The notes under the pieces were generated by a model. That model was not told the origin of the DNA and searched no databases. It worked only from the letters and a program-made list of their open reading frames with translations. The translations under genes were made by a program, and so were the position numbers. From Oscillospiraceae bacterium (GTDB lineage Bacteria; Bacillota; Clostridia; Oscillospirales; Ruminococcaceae), in contig JAFTYW010000051.1 in NCBI GenBank assembly GCA_017461245.1, forward strand, positions 1-60,588: a stretch of DNA of 60,588 bases, given 5' to 3'. Shown here in pieces: positions 1,156-11,387 of the stretch (positions are counted from its first letter, which is position 1; the number at the start of each line of letters is the position of its first letter).

Positions 1156-2831
1156 TACTTTGCATCTCCTTTGGTCATATTATGGAAAGCACTGAGCAGT
1201 GCGTTTGTGCTAGCACGTATCACGTCGGTATCGGTGCCTGCGCCCCAATACATTTTGCCGTCATTACGTTCAAGACCGATATACGAGGCGGCAACACTGT
1301 GAGAGCCGTCGCCCTGCATACTGTGTTGAGTAAACACCTGCAAGGTGTATTCTTCGCCGGTAAATTCGCAAAGCGCATTATTGACGGCACTAAGCGTACC
1401 GTTGCCTTCGGCTTCCATCTCAGTTTCTTCGCCGTCACGCTTGAAGGTAATATTGATTTTTACCGCATCGTTTTCACGCACAAAGTCAAAGTCGGTCACT
1501 TCAATACCGCTGTTAAGATTTAAGTAATTAGCAGTAAAGATATCCAGCACCTCATCGGGCTTGAGTTCCTTATGCTCGTGGTCGGAAACGCTCTTGCACA
1601 TATAACTGAAATGCTCACGCATTTTCGGCGGCAGATTATAACCGAAGGTCTGTTCCAGCAGATATCCGATACCGCCCTTGCCCGACTGAGAATTCACACG
1701 GATAACGTCTGCATCGTATGTACGACCAATGTCTTTGGGATCAATAGGGATATACGGAACGCTCCATTCGTGGAGCTTATTCTTTGTTCTATATTTCATA
1801 CCCTTTGCAATAGCATCCTGATGAGAGCCGGAGAAGGCGGCAAACACAAGTGCGCCTGCATAGGGTGCTCGCTCATACACGTGCATACGGGTGCAGCGCT
1901 CAAATTTCTCAACCAAGTAGTTCATATTAGAAAGATCAAGCTTCGGGTCAACGCCGTGAGAATACATATTCATCGCAAGAGTGATGATATCCACGTTACC
2001 GGTGCGTTCACCGTTGCCAAACAATGTACCTTCCACACGATCGGCACCTGCCAAGAGTGCCAATTCTGTATCGGCAACGCCTGTGCCTCTATCGTTGTGA
2101 GGGTGAAGCGACAAAGTTACAAACTCACGGTATTTAAGATTTTCGCTCATGAATTCTACCTGTGAAGCGTACACGTGCGGCAAACTCATTTCCACCGTTA
2201 CAGGCAGATTGATAATAACGTTGTTGTCTGCACTCGGCTCTAATATATCAAGCACCGCATTGCAAACTTCAAGAGCATATTCAGGTTCCGTTCCCGTAAA
2301 GGATTCGGGAGAATATTCAAAGCGGAAATTGCCTTCATATTCGCTTGCTAACTTCTTGACGAGCTTTGCGCCGTCAACCGCAATCTGCTTGATTTCTTCC
2401 TTGCTTTTCTTAAACACCTGTTCACGCTGAGCCACGCTCACCGAATTATAGAAGTGAATAATAGCGCTCGGTGCGCCTTTGCAGGCATCGAAGGTCTTAC
2501 GGATAATATGTTCACGGCATTGAGTGAGAACCTGAACGGTTACATCATTCGGAATCATATTGTTATCAATGAGGGTGCGAAGGAACTCATATTCCGTTTC
2601 GCTTGCGGCGGGAAAACCTACTTCAATTTCCTTAAAGCCAACCTCGAGCAAAACCTTATAGTATTCGAGCTTTTCTTCAAGGCTCATCGGAATGACAAGA
2701 CTTTGGTTACCGTCACGCATATCCACGCTACACCATACAGGCGGCTTTTCTACGTGGTCTTTTTCTACCCATTTGTTATATTTTTTATCGACCGGGAAAT
2801 ATCCCACTCGATATTTACTTGAATCCATCAT
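1155..2831 (-). CDS. leuA: 2-isopropylmalate synthase
   Basis: Condenses acetyl-CoA with 2-oxoisovalerate, the first committed step of leucine synthesis. The 558-aa protein has the HMGL-type TIM barrel: DMRDGNQS near residue 38, the metal-binding HPHNDRGTG and the GNGERTGN motif. A C-terminal regulatory domain contains the [13 protein letters not shown] region. Length and N-terminus fit the type-2 (fungal/actinobacterial-like, ~560 aa) LeuA. AAAAGGAG lies 9 nt before the ATG at 2831, and ridA ends 7 nt upstream. It is the third gene of the T-box-controlled operon; feedback inhibition by leucine is expected from the family but not visible here. Confidence 0.96.
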
Positions 2832-2837
2832 AGTTCG

Positions 2838-3215
2838 TTACTCCTTTTCTGCAACTACTTCCACCTCGACCAAAGCGCCTTTGGGAAGATCTTTCACCGC
2901 CACACAACTTCTTGCGGGTTTCTCGGTAAAATACTGCGCATACACTTCGTTAAATGCGGCGAAATCTGCCATATTTGCAAGGAAACATACAGTTTTAACG
3001 GCACTCTGTAGAGAACTGCCTGCGGCTTCTAAAACAGCTTGTAGGTTTTTGCAGACTCTATGTGTCTGCTCGGTAATGTTTTCGCCCTCCAAAACTCCTG
3101 TTTCGGGATTTAGCGGAATTTGACCGGAGGTAAATATGAGATTACCAAGGGCTATGCCTTGCGAGTAAGGGCCGATTGCCGCCGGTGCTTTGTTTGTTTG
3201 AACTTTACTGCTCAT
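2838..3215 (-). CDS. ridA: RidA family reactive intermediate deaminase
   Basis: Small YjgF/YER057c/UK114-family protein (125 aa) that hydrolyses reactive enamines/imines such as 2-aminocrotonate and 2-aminoacrylate released by PLP enzymes like IlvA. Family features are the AIGPYSQ segment near the N-terminus and the conserved Arg in KPARSCVAV. The start was moved from an upstream TTG (3233) to ATG 3215: GAAAGGAG lies 9 nt before this ATG, whereas the TTG overlaps the RBS. It sits directly after ilvA (20-nt gap), matching its role in quenching the IlvA intermediate. Confidence 0.94.
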   Translation of the reverse strand: MSSKVQTNKAPAAIGPYSQGIALGNLIFTSGQIPLNPETGVLEGENITEQTHRVCKNLQAVLEAAGSSLQSAVKTVCFLANMADFAAFNEVYAQYFTEKPARSCVAVKDLPKGALVEVEVVAEKE

Positions 3216-3235
3216 AACTTTAACTCCTTTCAAAA

Positions 3236-4426
3236 TTACACTAATTTGAATCCTTCATCACGTAATGTTTTTGTGATGAGGTTTACGTGTTCAAAATCTC
3301 TCGTTTCCATTTCAATGCGTAGGAAACATCCGTTGACGCTCTCGGTGTTGCCTTTTTCGTAGTGAACACCGGTTACGTTACCGCCGCAATCAGCGATGAT
3401 ACAGGAAATTTCTTTGAGCTGTCCGGGCTTGTCGATCAGTTCAATTAGCAAACTCGAAGATCTGCCCGAATTGAGCAATCCACGATCAATGACACGGGAT
3501 AGGCTTGTAACATCGATATTACCACCGGAAACAACAGCAACCACTCGTTTGCCTTTCAGATCAAATTTGCCTGCCATCACAGCAGCAACAGCAGTTGCAC
3601 CTGCGCCTTCTGCAATCATCTTTTGCTTTTCAATAAGAGCAAGAATGGCACTTGCAACCTCGTCATCGGTGACAAGAGCAATTTCATCTACATATTCGCT
3701 GACATAGCGGAAAGTGTTTTCTCCGGGTTGCTTTACTGCAATACCGTCTGCAATGGTGGAAACGGAAGAAAGACATTCAATTTCTCCGTCCTTCACCGAG
3801 TTATACATGCTCGGTGCGCCTGCGACTTGCACACCATAAACTTTAACGGAAGGTCTAATTTGCTTTGCAGTATAGGCGATGCCGGAAATCAATCCGCCGC
3901 CACCGATGGGGACTACAATGGCATCGATATTATCAAGGTCATTAAGAATTTCAAGAGCAATAGTACCTTGACCTGCGATAACGTTTTCATCATCAAAGGG
4001 ATGAACGAAGGTGTAGCCTTCGCTGTCACGAAGCTCTAACGCCTTTTGGTAGGCATCGTCATAGCAACCTTCTACCAAACAAACCTCTGCGCCAAATCCT
4101 TTGGTTGCTTCTACTTTTGAGATGGGAGCCGTATCAGGCAAACAAATCAAAGATTTGATTCCGTTCTTGGTTGCAGCAAGTGCCACGCCCTGTGCGTGAT
4201 TACCCGCCGAGCAAGCGATAACGCCTTTTTTCTTTTCTTCTTCGGAGAGCATTGCGATTTTATATGCAGAACCTCTCACCTTAAAGGAACCCGTAATTTG
4301 TAGGTTTTCAGGCTTTAGGAAAAGCTGGCAGTCGGGAGCAATACCGTATGCCCTTACAACATTAGTTTCACGAATAATGTTTTTGAGCACCGTCTGTGCA
4401 TTGAATACTTTGTCGAGAGTTAACAT
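3236..4426 (-). CDS. ilvA: Threonine ammonia-lyase (threonine dehydratase)
   Basis: PLP enzyme converting threonine to 2-oxobutyrate, the entry to isoleucine synthesis. The N-terminal domain has the PLP-lysine motif GSFKVRGSA, the SAGNHAQG loop and the phosphate-binding GGGGL. The C-terminal ~80 residues (LIELIDKPGQLKEIS onwards) look like a single ACT-type regulatory domain, giving the ~400-aa short form typical of Clostridia. ATG 4426 is preferred over ATG 4432 because AAAGGCGG is spaced 7 nt from the former and only 1 nt from the latter. First gene of the operon, about 55 nt after the T-box terminator. In the short form, biosynthetic and catabolic roles cannot be separated by sequence; the leuA/leuC neighbours favour biosynthesis. 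Confidence 0.94.
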   Translation of the reverse strand: MLTLDKVFNAQTVLKNIIRETNVVRAYGIAPDCQLFLKPENLQITGSFKVRGSAYKIAMLSEEEKKKGVIACSAGNHAQGVALAATKNGIKSLICLPDTAPISKVEATKGFGAEVCLVEGCYDDAYQKALELRDSEGYTFVHPFDDENVIAGQGTIALEILNDLDNIDAIVVPIGGGGLISGIAYTAKQIRPSVKVYGVQVAGAPSMYNSVKDGEIECLSSVSTIADGIAVKQPGENTFRYVSEYVDEIALVTDDEVASAILALIEKQKMIAEGAGATAVAAVMAGKFDLKGKRVVAVVSGGNIDVTSLSRVIDRGLLNSGRSSSLLIELIDKPGQLKEISCIIADCGGNVTGVHYEKGNTESVNGCFLRIEMETRDFEHVNLITKTLRDEGFKLV

Positions 4427-4480
4427 TTTCATTCCGCCTTTCTCATTTTAAGTTTATGCGTTTGGTTTCAGCTTTAAGGC

Positions 4481-4524
4481 AAAACAAAAACCCGCCTCAA
4501 AGCTTTTGATTGCTTTGAGACGGG
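4481..4524 (-). terminator. T-box-controlled intrinsic terminator
   Basis: A 13-bp stem (CCCGTCTCAAAGC pairing with GCTTTGAGGCGGG, one G-U pair) is followed by TTTTTGTTTT. It lies between the TGGTACCGCG T-box sequence and ilvA and is the OFF structure of the leader. Confidence 0.95.
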
Positions 4525-4960
4525 TGTAAATCTAAATTTAGCACTCGCGGTACCACTCAAATTGCGGATATATGATCCGCCACCTCTTCGAAGTCTAACA
4601 ACTTCTATGCACTAACGTAGCATACACGGGAAACGCCTACTGGGTGTTTATACCTTTGGGGCTTCCGGCTCAGAAGGGATGGGAAGTCTACAGTTCTTTA
4701 CCGGGATCGCACCATCCCCGGTTCTCTGGGAAATTCGTTGTAGGTTCCGTCTTCATCGACGCCTTTATTTTAATCGAAGTCCAACAACCTCTATGCACTG
4801 ACGTAGCATACACGGGGTTCCCTACACACATTTGCTTCAGGTTCCCGGCTCGGAAGCGAGAGGACAAGGATATCTAACACGCTGATTCGCACCAACCATC
4901 AGCTCTCTGTGCTGTTCTTCTCCGTGACCATTCTTCGTCATAGCCTTTGCAATATTAAAT
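4481..4960 (-). promoter_or_regulatory. T-box riboswitch leader with two stem I modules (Leu and Ile specifiers)
   Basis: Leader of the ilvA-ridA-leuA-leuC operon. Reading the minus strand, two stem I modules follow each other. Module 1 has AGAGAG at 4903-4908, distal loop GGTTGGTGCGAATC, specifier CTC at 4858-4860, then GAGCCGG. Module 2 has AGAGAACCGGGG, GGTGCGATCCCGG, specifier ATC at 4678-4680, then GAGCCGG. Both are followed by a nearly identical 43-nt stem II/III segment (4774-4816 and 4588-4630, 3 differences). Only the second continues into the T-box TGGTACCGCG (4546-4555) and a terminator. Uncharged tRNA binding should favour antitermination. Specifiers were assigned by aligning both modules on GAGCCGG. 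Confidence 0.9.
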
Positions 4961-4968
4961 TTTGTTAT

Positions 4969-4997
4969 ATTTTACTCCTTCGATGTGGAGTTGTCAA
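4969..4997 (-). promoter_or_regulatory. Promoter of the ilvA-ridA-leuA-leuC operon
   Basis: TTGACA (4992-4997), a 17-nt spacer and TAAAAT (4969-4974) on the minus strand form a near-consensus sigma-A promoter, with the start expected near 4962, just before the first T-box stem I. Upstream, a 9-bp inverted repeat GTTACCATC/GATGGTAAC spans 5025-5082 and could be a regulator site; this is inference. Confidence 0.85.
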
Positions 4998-4999
4998 CC

Positions 5000-5356
5000 A
5001 TTAGCAACATAAATGTTTTCGAATGTTACCATCGATATTTTCGATAGTGAATAAAATCGCATCGATAAATACGGATGGTAACTTGACTTATATTTTCACA
5101 TCTTGATCCTTTTAAGCACTTTAAAGGCAAGTAAAAATATTGTTCCCGTGATCTTATCATTTATTTATAACAAAGCCGGATGAACATATTGCTCATCCGG
5201 CATCATAATATGTAAGCTACACCTCGCTTTTTGATTAAAAAACCGATTTTTACTGAATTTTGTGCAAATTGAGATGGACAAAAATCAGCGAAACCCCTAG
5301 TGTTTATGCGGGTTTTAGGCGGTTTGCCATATTATAACGCATTCCTCAATTCCACG
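5000..5356. other. Intergenic stretch with inverted repeats, no gene seen
   Basis: No credible coding sequence. It contains the inverted repeat GTTACCATC/GATGGTAAC (5025-5082), a 9-bp hairpin GCCGGATGA/TCATCCGGC (5175-5201), and an AT-rich run leading into the repeat copy that starts near 5357. Confidence 0.6.
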
Positions 5357-5429
5357 AACAATTCCTGTTGCGGTGCCCGATAAAATCGTCGGGCTTGCGC
5401 TTTTCCTCGATTTTATCGACCGCTGCCAC

Positions 5430-5489
5430 TCACTCGGCTCGCTTCTTCCGCCACAGGCGGCGCTCGCCTCGCTCCCCTGTTGCTTTCAT
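5430..5489 (-). CDS. Candidate micro-ORF in repeat copy A
   Basis: ATG at 5489 with AAGGAGG 9 nt upstream opens a 19-codon frame, MKATGERGERRLWRKKRAE, ending in TGA. The identical peptide and SD are kept in repeat copy B. After the TGA the same frame stays open for 26 more codons. It is very basic and resembles no family I know. It may be a true small protein, a leader peptide, or chance in a repeat; no clear promoter is visible. Confidence 0.35.
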   Translation of the reverse strand: MKATGERGERRLWRKKRAE

Positions 5490-5515
5490 ATATAAATCCC
5501 TCCTTATTTACATTT

Positions 5516-5573
5516 TGTAGGGGTCATTCACGAATGACCCGCGGGCGATTCGTGAATCGCCCCTACATAAATT
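5516..5573. repeat. Short double-palindrome repeat
   Basis: Two adjacent palindromes, GGTCATTCACGAATGACC and GGGCGATTCGTGAATCGCCC, bounded by GTAGG and CCTAC. It belongs to a GTAGGGGC...GCCCCTAC intergenic family also seen at 8946, 10038, 32312 and 60527, and it forms one end of the longer repeat here. Confidence 0.85.
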
Positions 5574-5622
5574 TTCAAATTGTGATACTATTATCTGTAA
5601 AACAAGGAGATTTATACTTTTA

Positions 5623-5949
5623 TTATTTCAAAGAATCAACATAAACGCTCAAGAGTTTTAATGCGGTTTCTTTTTCATTGTTTGAACAATTTTTAATTGT
5701 TTCAGCAATATCTTGCTCTGTTATTTCGATATTGTTGTCGATTACTAAAATATCATTTGGTGTGATATTAAGCGCATTACATATTTTGAGCAATGTTTCA
5801 AGTCGCATATTTGTACTACCACGTTCTATATCAGCATAGGTGCGGTCAGACAGCTCGGCTTTTTCAGCAACTTCTGCTTGTGTCAATCCCTTGTTTTTTC
5901 TTGTTTTATAAAGTTTATTACCAATTTCACACAAGTTTGAAATAAGCAT
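5623..5949 (-). CDS. XRE family transcriptional regulator
   Basis: A 108-aa protein with an N-terminal Cro/CI helix-turn-helix (KTRKNKGLTQAEVAEKAELS then DRTYADIERGST) and a short helical C-terminal tail that probably dimerises. ATG 5949 is chosen over 5964 because GGAGG lies 8 nt before it. It is divergent from the peptide gene at 6117. Two matching GGAA-N6-TTCC elements (5978-5991, 6033-6046) lie between them, one overlapping this gene's probable -10 region. It is therefore the likely local, autoregulating controller of the peptide/exporter operon. Its AT-rich codon use matches the cassette rather than the surroundings. Confidence 0.88.
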   Translation of the reverse strand: MLISNLCEIGNKLYKTRKNKGLTQAEVAEKAELSDRTYADIERGSTNMRLETLLKICNALNITPNDILVIDNNIEITEQDIAETIKNCSNNEKETALKLLSVYVDSLK

Positions 5950-5977
5950 TTTTCTTCCCTCCATATTACTCTATATA

Positions 5978-5991
5978 GGAATTATACTTCC
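5978..5991. promoter_or_regulatory. Candidate operator 1 (GGAA-N6-TTCC)
   Basis: GGAATTATACTTCC, preceded by TATA. The same pattern recurs at 6033-6046. It overlaps the TATAAT-like -10 expected for the divergent XRE gene. Confidence 0.55.
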
Positions 5992-5999
5992 CATTTCTA

Positions 6000-6028
6000 T
6001 TGACAAATAAGAGGTTATAATGTATATT
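6000..6028 (+). promoter_or_regulatory. Promoter of the peptide/exporter operon
   Basis: TTGACA (6000-6005), 17-nt spacer, TATATT (6023-6028) on the plus strand, with candidate operators on both sides. The start of transcription falls near 6035, inside operator 2. Confidence 0.75.
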
Positions 6029-6032
6029 TATA

Positions 6033-6046
6033 GGAAGAATAGTTCC
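6033..6046. promoter_or_regulatory. Candidate operator 2 (GGAA-N6-TTCC)
   Basis: GGAAGAATAGTTCC, sharing the pattern TATAGGAA..ATA.TTCC with operator 1, 55 bp away. It covers the expected transcription start of the peptide gene, a position suited to repression. Confidence 0.55.
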
Positions 6047-6116
6047 TGTAGGCGCTTGCAATATGACTATTCCATTTTGCATGTATAACGGAACTGCTAC
6101 GAAGGAGGTGAAACGA

Positions 6117-6308
6117 ATGAAAAAAGTTAACGCCATGGAAATGCGTACTGTCGAAGGCGGCAAATGGGTTTATTGTCCTGTTTGCGGTAAAGGCAAAAAC
6201 GTAAAATGGGGTTGGGCAGTAATTTTCCGAGGTTGGAACTCTGTGCTTAACCAGGCTCGTAACACTATGCGCCGTCAACACTACGGCAACGGAAGAGTTT
6301 ACCACTAA
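6117..6308 (+). CDS. Double-glycine-leader peptide precursor (bacteriocin-like)
   Basis: 63 aa, ATG 6117, with AAGGAGGTG about 7 nt upstream. The leader MKKVNAMEMRTVEGG fits the C39-peptidase leader consensus position by position: V-12, E-8, M-7, V-4, G-2, G-1. Cleavage after GG would free a 48-residue peptide with no acidic residues, four Lys, five Arg, four Trp, a CPVC pair near its N-terminus and a YGNGRVYH tail. It lies directly before a C39-ABC exporter and is almost certainly its substrate. A bacteriocin or signalling peptide is likely; I see no immunity gene. It is not pediocin-like, because YGNG is at the wrong end and the disulfide layout differs. Confidence 0.85.
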   Translation: MKKVNAMEMRTVEGGKWVYCPVCGKGKNVKWGWAVIFRGWNSVLNQARNTMRRQHYGNGRVYH

Positions 6309-6320
6309 ATTAACATCCAC

Positions 6321-6353
6321 TCTTGTGTGGTAGGAGTAGTCTGCCACACAAGA
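6321..6353 (+). terminator. Hairpin between peptide gene and exporter
   Basis: TCTTGTGTGG pairs with CCACACAAGA (10 bp, 13-nt loop), followed only by TTTT. A leaky terminator or 3-prime stabiliser here would give more peptide mRNA than exporter mRNA. Confidence 0.6.
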
Positions 6354-6371
6354 TTTTAGAAGGAAAACAAC

Positions 6372-8627
6372 ATGAAACTAGTTAAGCAACATGATGAACG
6401 AGATTGTGGGGCGGCTTGTCTTTCAATGATCGCATCGCATTATGGATTAAAACACCCTATTTCTAAATACAGAGAACTTACAAAAACAGACCAGAATGGT
6501 GCAAACCTTTACGGTCTTTGTGATGCTGCCAAAAAAATCGGATTTAAAGCAGAAGCTTTATTAGGCGACACCGAAGAATTATTAGACGGTATACAAAATG
6601 CGGAAATCAAATTTCCTTTTATCGCTCATATTATCAACGAAGACTATATGCAACACTTTGTGGTTGTATTGAGTATAAAAAACAACAAATTTATAATAGC
6701 CGATCCTGCAAAAGGGAAGGTCAAATACACAATTGAACAATTTTCACAGCTTTGGAACGGATATATTGTAACATTTGAAAAAACAGAATCTTTTAAAAAA
6801 GGAAATTACGAAAAGGGTGGTTTTCGTAAATTCTTTTCCTTGCTTAAAGGTCAATACATAAAACTTACATCCATTATTTTATTGTCTTTGATAATATCTA
6901 TTATTGGTATTGTCGGCGCATTTGTTTTCGAAATTATCATTGACGATTTTTATACCGTTAACGAAACCATAGTATGTGAAGACAATTGCGAAGAAGAGCA
7001 TGAACACACCACGCAAGAAGACATTGGTGAATCGCAAAGCTTTTTAGACAAGGCTGTTAACTTCATTACAAATAATGCTTCCAATTTTAATTTATTTTTT
7101 ATTTGTTTGATAGGACTATACATATTACAAGCCTCTATACAGTTTTTGCGCGGATACTTAATATCTATTGTATCCAAAAAAATAGATATGCGCCTTTTAC
7201 TTCCTTATTACGACCACATAATTGATTTACCGATGTCTGTAGTTAATACGCGCAGTACCGGTGAATATCTTTCGCGTTTTTCCGATGCTTCGGCAGTACG
7301 AGATGCTATTTCGGGAGCAACACTCACCCTACTTTTAGACTCCGTAATGGTAATCGGTTGCGGTGTTATTCTATTTATGGAAAATGCAATACTTTTTTAT
7401 ATTTCGCTGATAGTTATATTACTTTATGCAGTCGTGGTTTTGTGTTATAGAAAACCACTTGAAAATATTAATCGCGAAGTGATGGAAAACAATGCAAGGG
7501 TACAATCATATTTAAAGGAATCTATTGATGGAATCGAAACAGTAAAATCACATCAAGCAGAAGCCTCTGCAAAAAGCAAAAATAGTTGCAAATTTCAAAA
7601 ACTTATCTCTTCCGTATTTAAAGATAACATTATTTCTATTTCGCAAGACAGCATTTGCGACTTAATTGAGCTTGTAGGAATTGTAATTATTCTTTGGGTC
7701 GGCTTTGGTATGGTGCTTGCAAATGCCGTGACCATTGGCTCACTTATTACTTTTTATGCTCTGCTGGAATACTTTACCGAACCTATTAAAAATCTTATAA
7801 GCCTACAGCCTACGATACAATCAGCATTTATAGCGGCAGAAAGACTAAATGATATTTTAGATATTCCAACAGAATATTCTATTGAGAATTTTCAAACTGA
7901 CCTTTCGTGGAATAAAATAGAATTTCTTAATGTAGATTTTCGATATGGAAATCACGAATTAGTACTCAAAAACATTTCTTTGAATATTGAAAAAGGTCAA
8001 AAGGTTGCCATAGTAGGTGAAAGCGGTTGCGGAAAAACAACACTTGTAAAACTTCTATTGAGATTTTACAAAGCAGAAAAAGGTAAAATATTAATTGACG
8101 GCAAAAATTTGCCTGATATTCCGTTAAAAAACATCAGAAAAGATATTTCTTATATAGACCAGAACACTTTTTTGTTTTCTGATACTGTAAAAAACAATTT
8201 AATGTTAGGAAATCCATCCGCAACAGATGAAGAAATTGCAGAAGCCTGCAAGCAAGCAAACGCCGATTCTTTTATTTGTGAGTTGCCGTTTAGGTATGAT
8301 ACTTATCTTGATGAAAACGGAAAGAACTTATCCGGCGGCCAAAGACAGCGATTGGCAATAGCAAGAGCTTTGTTGCGAAAGCCAAATCTAATAATTTTCG
8401 ACGAAGCAACAAGCAATCTTGACACCATTACAGAATGTGCCGTAAAAGATACGATATTTAATTTGAGCAAAGATATGACTTGTATAATTATCGCTCATCG
8501 TCTTAGCACAATCAAAAACTGTGATAAGATAGTTGTTATGGATAAGGGACAAATTGTTGAAATAGGCACTCATCAAGAATTAATGGGTAAAAAAGGAAAA
8601 TATTTTGAATTATATAATAGGCAATAA
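6372..8627 (+). CDS. Peptidase-containing ABC transporter (C39 bacteriocin exporter)
   Basis: 751-aa PCAT-type protein that removes double-glycine leaders and exports the peptide. Residues 1-130 are the C39 cysteine protease with QHDERDCGAAC (Cys12), His95 in QHFVVV and Asp111 in DPAKG. Residues ~160-480 are the membrane domain. Residues ~515-751 are the ATPase: Walker A GESGCGKTT (549-557), LSGGQ (653-657), Walker B LIIFDE (673-678), His709. The loop after the first membrane helix (191-240) is unusually long and acidic, with CEDNCEEEHEHTT, a possible metal site. AT-rich codons; AGAAGG precedes the ATG. It forms an operon with the peptide gene and is followed by a strong terminator. Confidence 0.95.
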   Translation: MKLVKQHDERDCGAACLSMIASHYGLKHPISKYRELTKTDQNGANLYGLCDAAKKIGFKAEALLGDTEELLDGIQNAEIKFPFIAHIINEDYMQHFVVVLSIKNNKFIIADPAKGKVKYTIEQFSQLWNGYIVTFEKTESFKKGNYEKGGFRKFFSLLKGQYIKLTSIILLSLIISIIGIVGAFVFEIIIDDFYTVNETIVCEDNCEEEHEHTTQEDIGESQSFLDKAVNFITNNASNFNLFFICLIGLYILQASIQFLRGYLISIVSKKIDMRLLLPYYDHIIDLPMSVVNTRSTGEYLSRFSDASAVRDAISGATLTLLLDSVMVIGCGVILFMENAILFYISLIVILLYAVVVLCYRKPLENINREVMENNARVQSYLKESIDGIETVKSHQAEASAKSKNSCKFQKLISSVFKDNIISISQDSICDLIELVGIVIILWVGFGMVLANAVTIGSLITFYALLEYFTEPIKNLISLQPTIQSAFIAAERLNDILDIPTEYSIENFQTDLSWNKIEFLNVDFRYGNHELVLKNISLNIEKGQKVAIVGESGCGKTTLVKLLLRFYKAEKGKILIDGKNLPDIPLKNIRKDISYIDQNTFLFSDTVKNNLMLGNPSATDEEIAEACKQANADSFICELPFRYDTYLDENGKNLSGGQRQRLAIARALLRKPNLIIFDEATSNLDTITECAVKDTIFNLSKDMTCIIIAHRLSTIKNCDKIVVMDKGQIVEIGTHQELMGKKGKYFELYNRQ

Positions 8628-8631
8628 TCTT

Positions 8632-8661
8632 AAAAGCGAGGTGTAATTCACCTCGCTTTTG
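8632..8661 (+). terminator. Terminator of the peptide/exporter operon
   Basis: AAAAGCGAGGTG TAATT CACCTCGCTTTT forms a 12-bp stem ending in a T run, just after the exporter stop. Confidence 0.9.
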
Positions 8662-8785
8662 TTATGTATAGGTCAAAATATGCTGTTTTTTTGTTAAAAA
8701 TTTTTGCTTGAAAATCTCTCGGAACCCAGTATTTATAAGGGGTTATCGCACTTTTGTGTTATAATGACACAAGTCTCGATTCTTC

Positions 8786-9006
8786 TCACAATTCCTATTG
8801 CGGTGCCCGATAAAATCGTCGGGCTTACGCTTTTCCTCGATTTTATTGACCGCTGCCACTCACTCGGCTCGCTTCTTCCGCCACAGGCGACGCTCGCCTC
8901 GCTCCCCTGTTGCTTTCATATATAAATCAATCTCCTTATTATATTTGTAGGGATCATTCACGAATGATCCGCGGGCGATTCGTGAATCGCCCCTACAGCA
9001 AAACTT
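8786..9006. repeat. Long intergenic repeat, copy B
   Basis: Direct copy of 5357-5577. With copy A it brackets the ~3-kb peptide/exporter cassette. The rest of the gap between the exporter and the next gene (8662-8785) is AT-rich, includes TGTTATAATG resembling an extended -10, and shows no gene. Substitutions relative to copy A are scattered, so the copies are not a fresh target-site duplication. Confidence 0.9.
8860..8919 (-). CDS. Candidate micro-ORF in repeat copy B
   Basis: Same 19-residue frame as at 5430-5489, MKATGERGERRLWRKKRAE then TGA. The only coding difference is a synonymous CGC to CGT. AAGGAG lies 12 nt before the ATG. Whether it is expressed is unknown. Confidence 0.35.
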   Translation of the reverse strand: MKATGERGERRLWRKKRAE

Positions 9007-9057
9007 TCAAGTTACGTTGTTTTTATTTGTGATTGGCAGGTTTTGCGCCGCTTATAC

Positions 9058-9086
9058 TTGAAGTTTTGGTTAATATTTGATATAAT
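9058..9086 (+). promoter_or_regulatory. Promoter of the DUF368 gene
   Basis: TTGAAG (9058-9063), 17-nt spacer, TATAAT (9081-9086), 30 nt upstream of the start codon. Confidence 0.8.
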
Positions 9087-9115
9087 TGTAGTTAACATAT
9101 AATTTGAGGTGTATT

Positions 9116-9946
9116 ATGAAGTCGTTTTTGTATCGTATTCTTTGTGGCTTTTGTCTGGGAGTAAGCGTGTTTGCACCCGGAATAAGCGGAAGTATAATGG
9201 CTATTATAATGGGCATATACGATAAGCTCCTCGACATAGCTTCAAACCCCTTTAAAAACTTTAAAAAGAACTTTAAGTTTCTCTTGCCTTTAGGAATAGG
9301 TGCCCTAATAAGTCTAATCTTATTTATACTGGTGTTCAGCTATCTTTTTGAAACCTATGAAAAAGCGGTATTTATGCTTTTTATCGGACTTATAGTAGGA
9401 AATCTGCCTATGGTTTATAAAGAAGCCAGAAAAAGTAAGTTTAGGTGGTATTACATCTTGGGCACTATTGCAGCATTTACCGTGGCCCTTATTGTTGGAA
9501 TAATGGGCGAAGGCGTTGGTGAAACCCAAGTCACCCAAGAAAATGCTAGTCTTATATACATCGCTTTAAGCGGAGCCTTGGCGGGATTCGCAAGTCTTAT
9601 ACCCGGTATGAGTGTTTCTCTTATACTAATTGTTATGGGTGTTTACGACTATCTTATTGCCGCGGCTAAAGCTCTCGACATAGTAACAATAGCAGTTGTA
9701 GGCGTGGCATTCGTGCTTTCCATGGTATTATCTTCTAAACTGATTAAATTTGTTTTTGCAAAATTTAATGGTATGGCGCATTTTATGGTTATGGGCTTTC
9801 TGATAGGCTCGGTTTGCGGAATTTTCTTCACCCTGCCAGAAACAGGCTCGAATCTAGCGGGAGTAATTATGCTCGTTATTGGTTTGGCAATCTCCTTATT
9901 GTTTGTTTACCTTGGTAAAAAAGTAAATATCGACGAAAAAGGCTAA
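9116..9946 (+). CDS. DUF368 membrane protein, probable polyprenyl-phosphate transporter (PopT-like)
   Basis: 276-aa protein with about eight hydrophobic segments and the twin motifs of DUF368, PGISGS near residue 23 and PGMSVS near residue 168, placed as inverted-repeat halves. DUF368 members have been implicated in returning undecaprenyl phosphate across the membrane for cell-envelope synthesis. ATG 9116 with GAGGTG 4 nt upstream is preferred to a TTG at 9104 that precedes the RBS. Monocistronic: it has its own promoter and a terminator follows. Confidence 0.88.
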   Translation: MKSFLYRILCGFCLGVSVFAPGISGSIMAIIMGIYDKLLDIASNPFKNFKKNFKFLLPLGIGALISLILFILVFSYLFETYEKAVFMLFIGLIVGNLPMVYKEARKSKFRWYYILGTIAAFTVALIVGIMGEGVGETQVTQENASLIYIALSGALAGFASLIPGMSVSLILIVMGVYDYLIAAAKALDIVTIAVVGVAFVLSMVLSSKLIKFVFAKFNGMAHFMVMGFLIGSVCGIFFTLPETGSNLAGVIMLVIGLAISLLFVYLGKKVNIDEKG

Positions 9947-9978
9947 GGACGTAATTTTGTTTTGAAGCCAAAAACACA

Positions 9979-10006
9979 AGCGGGGCGAAATTCGCCCCGC
10001 TTTTTT
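9979..10006 (+). terminator. Terminator after the DUF368 gene
   Basis: AAGCGGGGCGAA ATTCGCCCCGCTTTTTT, a GC-rich stem followed by T6. Confidence 0.92.
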
Positions 10007-10037
10007 GTGTGTAAATCTTCTTATTACATTTGATATA

Positions 10038-10083
10038 TGTCATTTGTGAATGACCCGCGGGCGAACAATGTTCGCCCCTACAT
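10038..10083. repeat. Short double-palindrome repeat
   Basis: TCATTTGTGAATGA and GGGCGAACAATGTTCGCCC next to each other with a CCTACA end. It is the same family as 5516-5573, without the longer repeat body. Confidence 0.75.
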
Positions 10084-10103
10084 AGATTTTCAAAATCAAT
10101 ATG

Positions 10104-10505
10104 CTATCTCATTAGCTCGTCGGTGAGGCGGAGGATCTCGGGGGCGATCTTTTGGCGTTCCTTTTTTACAACGCGGTTGTAAAGCGGATAGGCGAGGCTG
10201 ACGAGGACAATGCCGACAACGCCGATAATAATTCCGATAAGCATAGCTATTTTCTCAAAGTCGCCGAGTATTTTTGAAAACTCGGTCATGGTAAGGCTCA
10301 TACCGGTTCCCAAAAGCAAGGCGCCAATAATGCCGAATACAAGCGACACCGCCGTGGCTTTTTGTGTGACGCCCGCATCCAAGCGGCGAAGCTGCGCCAT
10401 CTTGTCCTCGGTTTGTTCGGGGGCGGCATACTTCTTTCTGATTGCCTTGATTTCATCCTGCTCCTTGGCGGAGTAGGTAAGCTTAAATGTTTCTTTATTT
10501 TCCAT
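10104..10505 (-). CDS. Small two-helix membrane protein
   Basis: 133 aa. A charged N-terminal ~50 residues (SAKEQDEIKAIRKKYAAPEQ) is followed by two transmembrane helices (VSLVFGIIGALLLGTGMSLTMT and IAMLIGIIIGVVGIVLVSLAYPLY) and a short basic tail. It is a paralogue of the protein at 13485-13850, sharing the G.GMSL.MT and YP.Y segments and the same layout. GAGGAA precedes the ATG. It is the last gene of a minus-strand run with the two-component system. I recognise no named function. Confidence 0.8.
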   Translation of the reverse strand: MENKETFKLTYSAKEQDEIKAIRKKYAAPEQTEDKMAQLRRLDAGVTQKATAVSLVFGIIGALLLGTGMSLTMTEFSKILGDFEKIAMLIGIIIGVVGIVLVSLAYPLYNRVVKKERQKIAPEILRLTDELMR

Positions 10506-10517
10506 TGTTCTTCCTCA

Positions 10518-11387
10518 CTATTTTAATGCTTTTAGTTTTTTGCTGCTTTGCACTATCATATAAACTGCCATTACAATAATAAATGCAGACACGGCGCCGC
10601 CCGTGGCGCCAAGGAATATCTTGCGGGTTACAGCATCTGTACTGCCGCCGAAGGTGGTCAGCATTGTGGCTTCCAAGGTCAGCATTGAAACGCAGGCGGC
10701 AGCAAGGCTGATAGCCTTTGATGCCGAGTAGACGGGACTGTTATATTTACGGTATTTCACCATATTGATGATCGCCATAGTAAAGGCGGTAAAGGTGTAT
10801 GCCGCCATTGCGATGGTTGTGATCTCATGGTGAACAAAGGTCCTGTTCCAATACACCATAAAAAACACCATCATCGACAAGGTCAGATTCATAAACAGAA
10901 ACACCCAGCCGCAAGTGCGGTATTTTTTTAGCTCCTGCTCCATTTTTTCGCCTGCGTTATGGCGGCGGGTGTGGCGAAGCAGGAAAAACCGCATAACCGC
11001 AAGGGCGATATAATAACCAGCCAAGGAATAATACCAGAAGGTGTGGTGCCAGAAGCCGAGCCCCAACTGAAAGACGGCGTAAGCGGTGTTCCAGACAAGC
11101 GAGCCGTAAAGCGACACCTTTACCCGCAGGCGCGCGTCGCTCAGCCAGCGCTGTGCATATTTGTTTTGGTCTTTAAAGCCTTTGAAAAATCGAATCAAAT
11201 ACGGGATTTTAAAGCACCAGACTGTCAATGTATAGGCAGCAAGCACGTAAGAAATAATGGCAGCTACCGACTCTGTTCCTAAAAACACCATCGAGTACAC
11301 GAGAAACACGGTGGCTATTGGAATTAAAATAATCATTATTGCTATATGCGGAAACAGCAGAGCTTTTCCCAGTTTTTTCCAGTTCAT
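10518..11387 (-). CDS. Multi-pass membrane protein of unknown function
   Basis: 289 aa with about eight predicted membrane helices, starting MNWKKLGKALLFPHIAIM, and a cytoplasmic basic loop (LLRHTRRHNAGEKMEQELKKY) near the middle. GGAGGG precedes the ATG and the gene begins 1 nt after the histidine kinase stop, so it is cotranscribed with it. It could be a sensed or regulated envelope component of the two-component system. Function not assigned. Confidence 0.8.
   Translation of the reverse strand: MNWKKLGKALLFPHIAIMIILIPIATVFLVYSMVFLGTESVAAIISYVLAAYTLTVWCFKIPYLIRFFKGFKDQNKYAQRWLSDARLRVKVSLYGSLVWNTAYAVFQLGLGFWHHTFWYYSLAGYYIALAVMRFFLLRHTRRHNAGEKMEQELKKYRTCGWVFLFMNLTLSMMVFFMVYWNRTFVHHEITTIAMAAYTFTAFTMAIINMVKYRKYNSPVYSASKAISLAAACVSMLTLEATMLTTFGGSTDAVTRKIFLGATGGAVSAFIIVMAVYMIVQSSKKLKALK

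Follow-up and report, generated by a model that had tools for sequence, protein, structure and literature searches.

A sparsely distributed export unit for cationic CxxC peptides with Gly-Gly leaders

Contig JAFTYW010000051.1 of the Oscillospiraceae bacterium assembly GCA_017461245.1 (60,588 nucleotides, referred to here as the window) contains a compact cassette near positions 5,600–8,661 that consists of a regulator gene, a gene for a small precursor peptide and a peptide exporter gene. The question raised by this locus is whether the three genes form a genuine unit and, if so, what kind of peptide is exported and how the producing cell tolerates it. A reading made from the sequence only had proposed a self-contained unit with a cationic product that fits no known bacteriocin class. 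The export unit is real, conserved and sparsely distributed. Its conserved features are a leader of 15 amino acids (aa), an early CxxC motif, a net positive charge and the exporter group to which it belongs. The related units seem to make up an undescribed family.

The cassette and its relatives

The three open reading frames (ORFs) of the sequence-only reading are present, with the positions and the identities it had predicted, and they are the only ORFs of the cassette, which bears out the proposed self-contained unit:

5623–5964, minus strand: XRE-family helix-turn-helix (HTH) repressor of 113 aa, divergent from the peptide gene
6102–6108, plus strand: Shine-Dalgarno sequence AAGGAGG, 5′ of the precursor gene
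6117–6308, plus strand: precursor peptide of 63 aa (15-aa leader and 48-aa core), ATG at 6117 and stop at 6308
6372–8627, plus strand: C39 peptidase-ABC exporter of 751 aa, with C39, ABC membrane and ABC ATPase domains
6954–7109, plus strand: enlarged first extracellular loop (presumed) of the exporter, codons 195–246, with CEDNCEEEHEH, no counterpart in PCAT1

The XRE protein is composed of the HTH (HTH_3, 55.2 bits with a cut-off of 23) and about 40 further residues. The exporter, a peptidase-containing ABC transporter (PCAT), scores 616.6 bits with TIGR01193 (cut-off 523.85), and its gene starts 63 bases after the end of the peptide gene. Its best solved relative is PCAT1 of Clostridium thermocellum (PDB 4RY2, 6V9Z), with 668.5 bits against 4ry2 in phmmer; in the alignment, Cys12 and His95 of the window exporter occupy the positions of the PCAT1 catalytic Cys and His. 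The leader of the precursor, MKKVNAMEMRTVEGG, displays V-12, E-8, M-7, V-4, G-2 and G-1, as the sequence-only reading had stated; its hydrophobic positions are thus V-12, M-7 and V-4, followed by Gly-Gly (GG). The available part of the description of CtA, a PCAT1 substrate, reports that hydrophobic leader residues at positions -12 and -7 matter (PMC6959990), and in V-12 and M-7 the window leader is CtA-like. According to the same partial source CtA is a 90-residue polypeptide, unlike the 48-aa window core, and no XRE/CxxC cassette is described there alongside PCAT1 (PMC6959990). The likeness to PCAT1 is in the C39-ABC exporter, and the window cassette has no accessory gene.

Relatives were sought with the window exporter at E-values of 1e-100 or 1e-120 in overlapping samples of 396 genomes (family), 394 genomes (order) and 391 genomes (class), and the surroundings were examined at 16 of 19, all four new ones among 8, and 10 of 23 places outside the window. 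A tree of 30 exporters places nine, seven of them intact and two damaged, on one side of a 100/100 branch. Exporters of L048, L049, L051, L089 and L093 are outside this tree, having been dropped by the motif filter, and ORFs L088_1594 and L093_9254 were taken out manually. The same scan rule was used for all 30 exporters; it finds an upstream, same-strand GG peptide with an early CxxC at seven of the nine group members and at none of the 21 others. Both misses within the group are the damaged exporters. The sequence-only reading had named absence of the ORF beside homologous exporters as the result that would count against it; a CxxC GG peptide is found at all seven intact group exporters. The window exporter itself groups with the others and has such a peptide upstream on the same strand. 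The scan also returned an opposite-strand ORF in L043 and a downstream ORF in L081, which were set aside, neither having a plausible leader.

Four of the seven intact loci (the window, L012, L080 and L081) have the full divergent set of XRE, peptide and exporter genes, so that the recurrence which the sequence-only reading had proposed to look for is seen in three other genomes. L012 is found in a goat-colon Clostridia genome. Its exporter is 73.5% identical to that of the window, its XRE gene is divergent (HTH_3, 61 bits) and its leader is the same as the window leader at 14 of 15 residues. The core differs; it contains CSACG and the two cores are 21% identical. The exporter of L080 is 54% identical to the window exporter, and that of L081 is 54% identical over residues 241–745. 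L083 (exporter 49% identical over 227–749) encodes two side-by-side peptides. L034 (48%) also encodes two peptides and has no XRE gene directly adjoining, and the L040 exporter shows 41% identity. All intact loci except L012 span six genera and at least three families. In the damaged locus L039 the exporter is split over two frames; in the damaged locus L097 the front of the exporter is missing and no peptide was found.

The window peptide, when searched against the genome collection, matched two loci, the true relative L012 and the spurious L013, where neither a GG peptide nor an exporter stands beside the match. A profile of seven peptides, compared with nine genomes, recovers two peptides of G509 (L083) that are absent from the profile, with E-values of 1.2e-8 and 1.4e-6, and both adjoin the G509 exporter. 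The profile finds none in G1155. Some match at E ≤1 is seen in eight of the nine genomes, the weak ones being chance.

Group exporters at strict cut-offs are present in at least four of the 396 family genomes (G000, G126, G213 and G371), in two of 71 genomes in the genus of G726 and in one of 70 in the family of G1064. The peptide profile at E ≤0.001 matches four of 257 family genomes: in the window genome and in G126 the match is beside a group exporter, in G056 it is an orphan, and in G100 it has internal stops. Peptide matches at E 0.001–0.01 are found in nine of 396 genomes besides that of the window, four of them with internal stops. Plasmids show no match for three peptides (the window peptide at E ≤1, two others at E ≤0.1), and viral contigs contain no relative of the window peptide, of the exporter or of the 79-aa L034 peptide. 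Matches of the window peptide to phage capsid sequences (E 0.1–0.4) are attributed to chance, and L099, a zinc-ribbon-like stretch in a contig of the viral collection, was rejected as it has neither leader nor exporter. A possible orphan relative is encoded at L046:11937–12143. It has a GG leader, CPYCG and, further on, H-x3-C, and lies about 4.5 kb from the L046 exporter, which falls outside the group.

The cargo peptides and the exporter loop

The window core has 48 residues with nine Lys and Arg, no Asp or Glu (net charge +9), four Trp, two His and two Cys, which form CPVC. This agrees with the composition given in the sequence-only reading; the Trp number and the YGNGRVYH tail, which it had listed among the features of the core, are not conserved in the family. 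The nine cores of the intact loci have 44–64 residues, a net charge of +3 to +10 and 1 to 5 Trp, and one or more His residues occur in eight of the nine. A 15-residue leader can be assigned to each of the nine precursors, which for L081 means cleavage after Ala-Gly. At position -7 the L080 leader has Q and both L083 leaders have A.

CxxC begins at core residue 4 to 13 in all nine cores. When each core is shuffled, the probability of a CxxC within the first 16 residues is 0.008 to 0.14; it is observed in nine out of nine. The exact pattern CxxC-x13-HCxxH is displayed by three peptides (that of L081 and both of L083), and one L034 peptide is a near match, CxxC-x15-HCx4H. CPxCG with two later His residues is common to the second L034 peptide and those of the window and L080. 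There are five Cys in L012 and six in L040. On these patterns the cores appear zinc-finger-like (CxxC with His or Cys), with the window core as a putative outlying member.

No NCBIfam model reaches its cut-off with any of the nine peptides. The best scores below cut-off are both from L040, i.e. TIGR04149 with 18.6 of 25 bits and lactococcin G-alpha with 16.2 of 37 bits. In Pfam the window peptide is below cut-off and the best E-value among the nine peptides is 0.029; in PHROGs the best is 0.015. A phmmer comparison of the window peptide with solved structures gives a weak match to PDB chain 2i13_A (Aart), E-value = 2.7e-4, with no separate stretch passing. The earlier placement of the core outside known classes is therefore upheld for the Pfam and NCBIfam models at their cut-offs. 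Small zinc-finger and zinc-ribbon proteins (Cys_rich_KTR, DUF3797, YnfU) share a CPxCG-type knuckle and give weak matches with the window and L034 peptides, which span 10–25 residues and are below curated cut-offs. Proteins of these types are not known to have a GG leader.

The cassette resembles class II bacteriocin systems in its GG leader, PCAT export, small cationic core and the absence of a visible modification enzyme. It differs in that no family model is reached at cut-off and that neither an immunity gene nor an HlyD-type accessory gene is found in the cassette. Class IIa (pediocin-like) bacteriocins display YGNG(V) near the N-terminus, before the Cys residues, and a disulfide loop. 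The window peptide shares with them the letters YGNG alone; these are at core residues 41–44, after both Cys, a position that rules out a class IIa assignment, and the class IIa models of Pfam and NCBIfam give no hit with the window peptide. The pneumococcal rtg locus also has PCAT-exported GG peptides with an adjoining regulator. In the available part of its description the regulator is an Rgg protein, a putative accessory protein is present and immunity-like genes lie downstream of five of seven peptide genes (PMC7018657). Thus rtg, as far as that partial source goes, differs by an Rgg regulator, an accessory protein and immunity-like genes, which are not seen in the window cassette. Among the titles and opening lines of abstracts covered in the literature, none describes a CxxC or zinc-finger-like GG-peptide family; where a topic had several hundred papers or more, the coverage was of the top-ranked ones. 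Some of the precursors may already be included, without comment, in a gut-wide class II bacteriocin atlas (preview, PMC12648078). The unit is known in kind, as a GG peptide with a PCAT, and what appears new is the type of cargo and the exporter loop.

This loop is the second unusual property of the group. Residues 195–246 of the window exporter (52 residues) face 15 residues of the PCAT1 chain and, by PCAT topology, are presumably the extracellular loop that connects membrane helices 1 and 2. The window segment 188–246 is 59 aa long with a net charge of -12. Comparable acidic segments are present in L012 (59 aa), L034 (68), L039 (73), L080 (54) and L097 (64), the six having net charges of -6 to -18. 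The segments of L081, L040 and L083 are short (26, 28 and 34 aa; net -2, 0 and 0), and in all 21 exporters outside the group the segment is 22 aa. The enlarged acidic loop is therefore typical of the exporter group, though not universal. CEDxCxxEHEH is common to the window and L012, and HHDDHED is found in L034; there are few His residues in L080 and L039. The loop of L097 has a long His/Asp/Glu run, in an exporter without its C39 part and near a serine-recombinase gene (L097:4595–6370 and 6794–8365).

Neither a modification enzyme nor a dedicated immunity gene is present among the ORFs of the cassette, and no immunity gene is shared among ORFs of at least 45 aa within 4 kb of the nine exporters (E 0.01), in line with what the sequence-only reading had seen. 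The only neighbours linked across loci are HTH genes and GG peptides, and thus a shared immunity gene is not visible; the L080 XRE gene matched none of the others. Since no immunity gene travels with the cassette, self-protection would most likely reside in the exporter. The earlier suggestion that immunity may lie in the exporter is consistent with the unusual loop, and stands as a suggestion. The observation in the sequence-only reading is thus confirmed and its interpretation is in part supported.

Proposed function and rival explanations

We favour, with moderate confidence, a class-II-bacteriocin-like unit for metal-binding cationic peptides, in which self-protection is perhaps provided by the exporter. 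The C39 domain would very probably cut behind Gly-Gly to release the 15-residue leader, and the 48-residue core would be exported through the ABC part. The core would then fold around a metal ion or a disulfide and act, most likely, as a bacteriocin against related bacteria. We consider a bacteriocin activity reasonably likely. Metal binding is about an even proposition for the family, and less certain for the core of the window peptide. The enlarged acidic loop, with its Cys and His residues, could keep the cationic peptide, and perhaps its metal, off the producer membrane; this role in self-protection is tentative. A bolder version, in which the peptides are secreted zinc-finger antibiotics and immunity is an acidic, metal-binding exporter loop that loads the metal or traps the emerging peptide, is distinctly unlikely. 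If it were true, three genes would suffice for a complete, movable weapon.

The peptides might alternatively be class II bacteriocins of two-chain or disulfide-based type, with the CxxC residues in disulfides and no metal. Disulfides are found in many class II bacteriocins, a tandem pair of these peptides is encoded in L034 and another in L083, and the L040 core has six Cys and no His. However, CxxC with HCxxH is a usual ligand set of zinc fingers, His is present in the cores of all members but L040, and the two Cys of the window core would have to bond within CPVC. A disulfide-based peptide is somewhat unlikely. With a core like that of L040, disulfides may nevertheless replace the metal in some members. 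A cell-to-cell signal (pheromone) is also conceivable, exported by the PCAT and sensed by neighbouring cells, and the XRE protein would belong to the response. In favour of this, the unit includes a regulator, the loci have no immunity gene in common, and the L080 peptide is behind a cyclic di-GMP (c-di-GMP-I) riboswitch, a type of element tied to lifestyle decisions. GG peptides can indeed be signals, as the part of the rtg report available indicates (PMC7018657). Yet the leaders of the window and L012 are nearly the same while their cores are so different, the cassette has no histidine kinase or peptide-binding regulator gene, and the XRE protein has about 40 residues beyond its HTH. Cores of 44–64 aa are also long for a pheromone, and we regard a signal as unlikely.

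A role in metal handling, where the CxxC/His core and a His- and acid-rich loop would serve zinc capture or delivery and not killing, is very unlikely. The core patterns such as CxxC-x13-HCxxH would suit a metallophore, as would the His-rich loop of L097, HHDDHED in L034 and CEDNCEEEHEH in the window. On the other hand, no candidate gene for an uptake receptor or a metal sensor is common to the neighbourhoods of the loci, metal capture does not need a high positive charge and a variable sequence, and three of the nine exporters lack the loop.

Several points weigh against the bacteriocin-like, metal-binding reading that we prefer. The window core lacks the HCxxH part and its two His residues are 32 and 40 residues after CxxC, while L040 has six Cys and no His, as described above. 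The acidic loop is missing from the group exporters of L081, L040 and L083, and two of the six loop-bearing exporters are damaged genes (L039 and L097). The peptide of L081 (net charge +10) is as cationic as any and its exporter has no acidic loop; thus the loop is not needed for export, and the association of acidic loop and cationic cargo is not strict. The GG peptide of L039 lacks CxxC, and the L081 peptide was chosen by eye once the pattern was known. The tree is rooted at its midpoint and L040 and L039 are on long branches, and for three of the 21 controls the upstream sequence is shorter than 1 kb (L036 with 133, L090 with 177 and L088 with 930 bases). An unlinked immunity gene may also exist.

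The significance of the unit is in a lineage of exporters associated with zinc-finger-like CxxC cargo, for which the libraries searched have no model at cut-off. It offers nine peptides for zinc-binding and killing tests and a testable idea of producer self-protection without an immunity gene. Such units may escape gene-finding tools that depend on established precursor models or on neighbouring immunity genes.

Control elements and genomic setting

The sequences between and after the genes of the cassette contain candidate control elements:

5974–5991, no strand assigned: operator-like repeat 1, 18 bases with a GGAA-N6-TTCC dyad
6000–6028, plus strand: promoter-like TTGACA-N17-TATATT, 11 of 12 consensus matches, between the operator-like repeats
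6029–6046, no strand assigned: operator-like repeat 2, 18 bases with a GGAA-N6-TTCC dyad, 83% identical to repeat 1
6321–6353, plus strand: 14-bp hairpin between peptide and exporter genes, -21.4 kcal/mol, z -4.17, possible attenuator or 3′-end stabiliser
8631–8661, plus strand: intrinsic-terminator-like stem after the exporter gene, the longest stem of four such sites in the region (2.3 expected)

Paired repeats around a promoter are the layout expected for XRE operators. The XRE protein probably represses the operon by binding to both repeats. A promoter scan of the region gives 11 sites versus a mean of 14.1 in shuffles, and therefore the case for this promoter rests on its position and score. 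Between the XRE and peptide genes L012 has TGTAACGTTATGTTACA and a second copy of it, and L080 has a perfect palindrome with 9-base arms; the repeats of L081 at this location are weaker.

A hairpin between peptide and exporter genes with z below -4 is present in five of seven loci (the window, L012, L080, L081 and L034). Weaker ones are found in L083 (z -1.8, from 150 of the 157 bases) and L040 (z -2.9, from the first 125 bases after the peptide). The hairpin probably results in more message for the peptide than for the exporter, with attenuation as a possible mechanism.

No known RNA is detected at gathering score in window positions 2500–11000. A miRNA match in 5950–6400 (E 3.5) is attributed to chance. 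L080:6090–6174 is a c-di-GMP-I riboswitch that scores 70 bits (gathering score 35), and its end is 12 bases upstream of the peptide start. Such control is unexpected for a peptide that resembles a bacteriocin. No riboswitch reaches gathering score in the window or in the other seven loci searched. In L034 each of the two peptide genes follows a structured 5′ region, at 8634–8770 and 9015–9150 of the minus strand (z -1.5 and -3.6), and the two regions are nearly identical. They match no Rfam family at E 2 and are possibly an undescribed leader RNA.

The cassette is bounded by a pair of direct repeats:

5310–5581, no strand assigned: left direct repeat, pairs with 8740–9013
8740–9013, no strand assigned: right direct repeat, pairs with 5310–5581

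Identity is 93% for 5358–5581 versus 8788–9013 (about 225 bases) and 87% for 5310–5498 versus 8740–8928. This pair is the only direct repeat of at least 100 nucleotides (nt) in the window. In the 1.77-Mb genome there are 16 matches to the repeat, two of them the long copies and the other 14 shorter than 90 bases. Positions 5585–8660 have a guanine-plus-cytosine (GC) content of 34.3%, versus 46.2% for the window, and among 576 stretches of 3 kb no value is below that of the cassette. Among three genomes of the genus, only the window's own has an exporter match at E 1e-120. The low GC content, the flanking repeats and the absence of the exporter from two congeners point to acquisition, and the cassette was probably acquired horizontally. 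The two congeners showed no empty site; for the flanking gene at 9104–9946 one has no match at E 1e-10 and the other a 29% match.

Direct repeats of at least 35 nt do not flank the cassette in L012, L080, L081 or L083, and such repeats are therefore known for the window copy only. Some relatives show signs of mobile elements: a phage-type integrase gene adjoins the L034 peptides, a serine-recombinase gene (Resolvase and Recombinase domains) is located in L097 where the front of the exporter is expected, and a tRNA gene lies 178 bases upstream of the L083 peptides. The window peptide gene has 46% GC versus 32–34% for the neighbouring XRE and exporter genes, which may hint at exchange of cores inside the cassette; in L012 and L081 this difference is reduced or not seen. 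Upstream of the cassette, window positions 4588–4630 and 4774–4816 form a further direct repeat of 43 nt, with 93% identity and a spacing of 186 nt.

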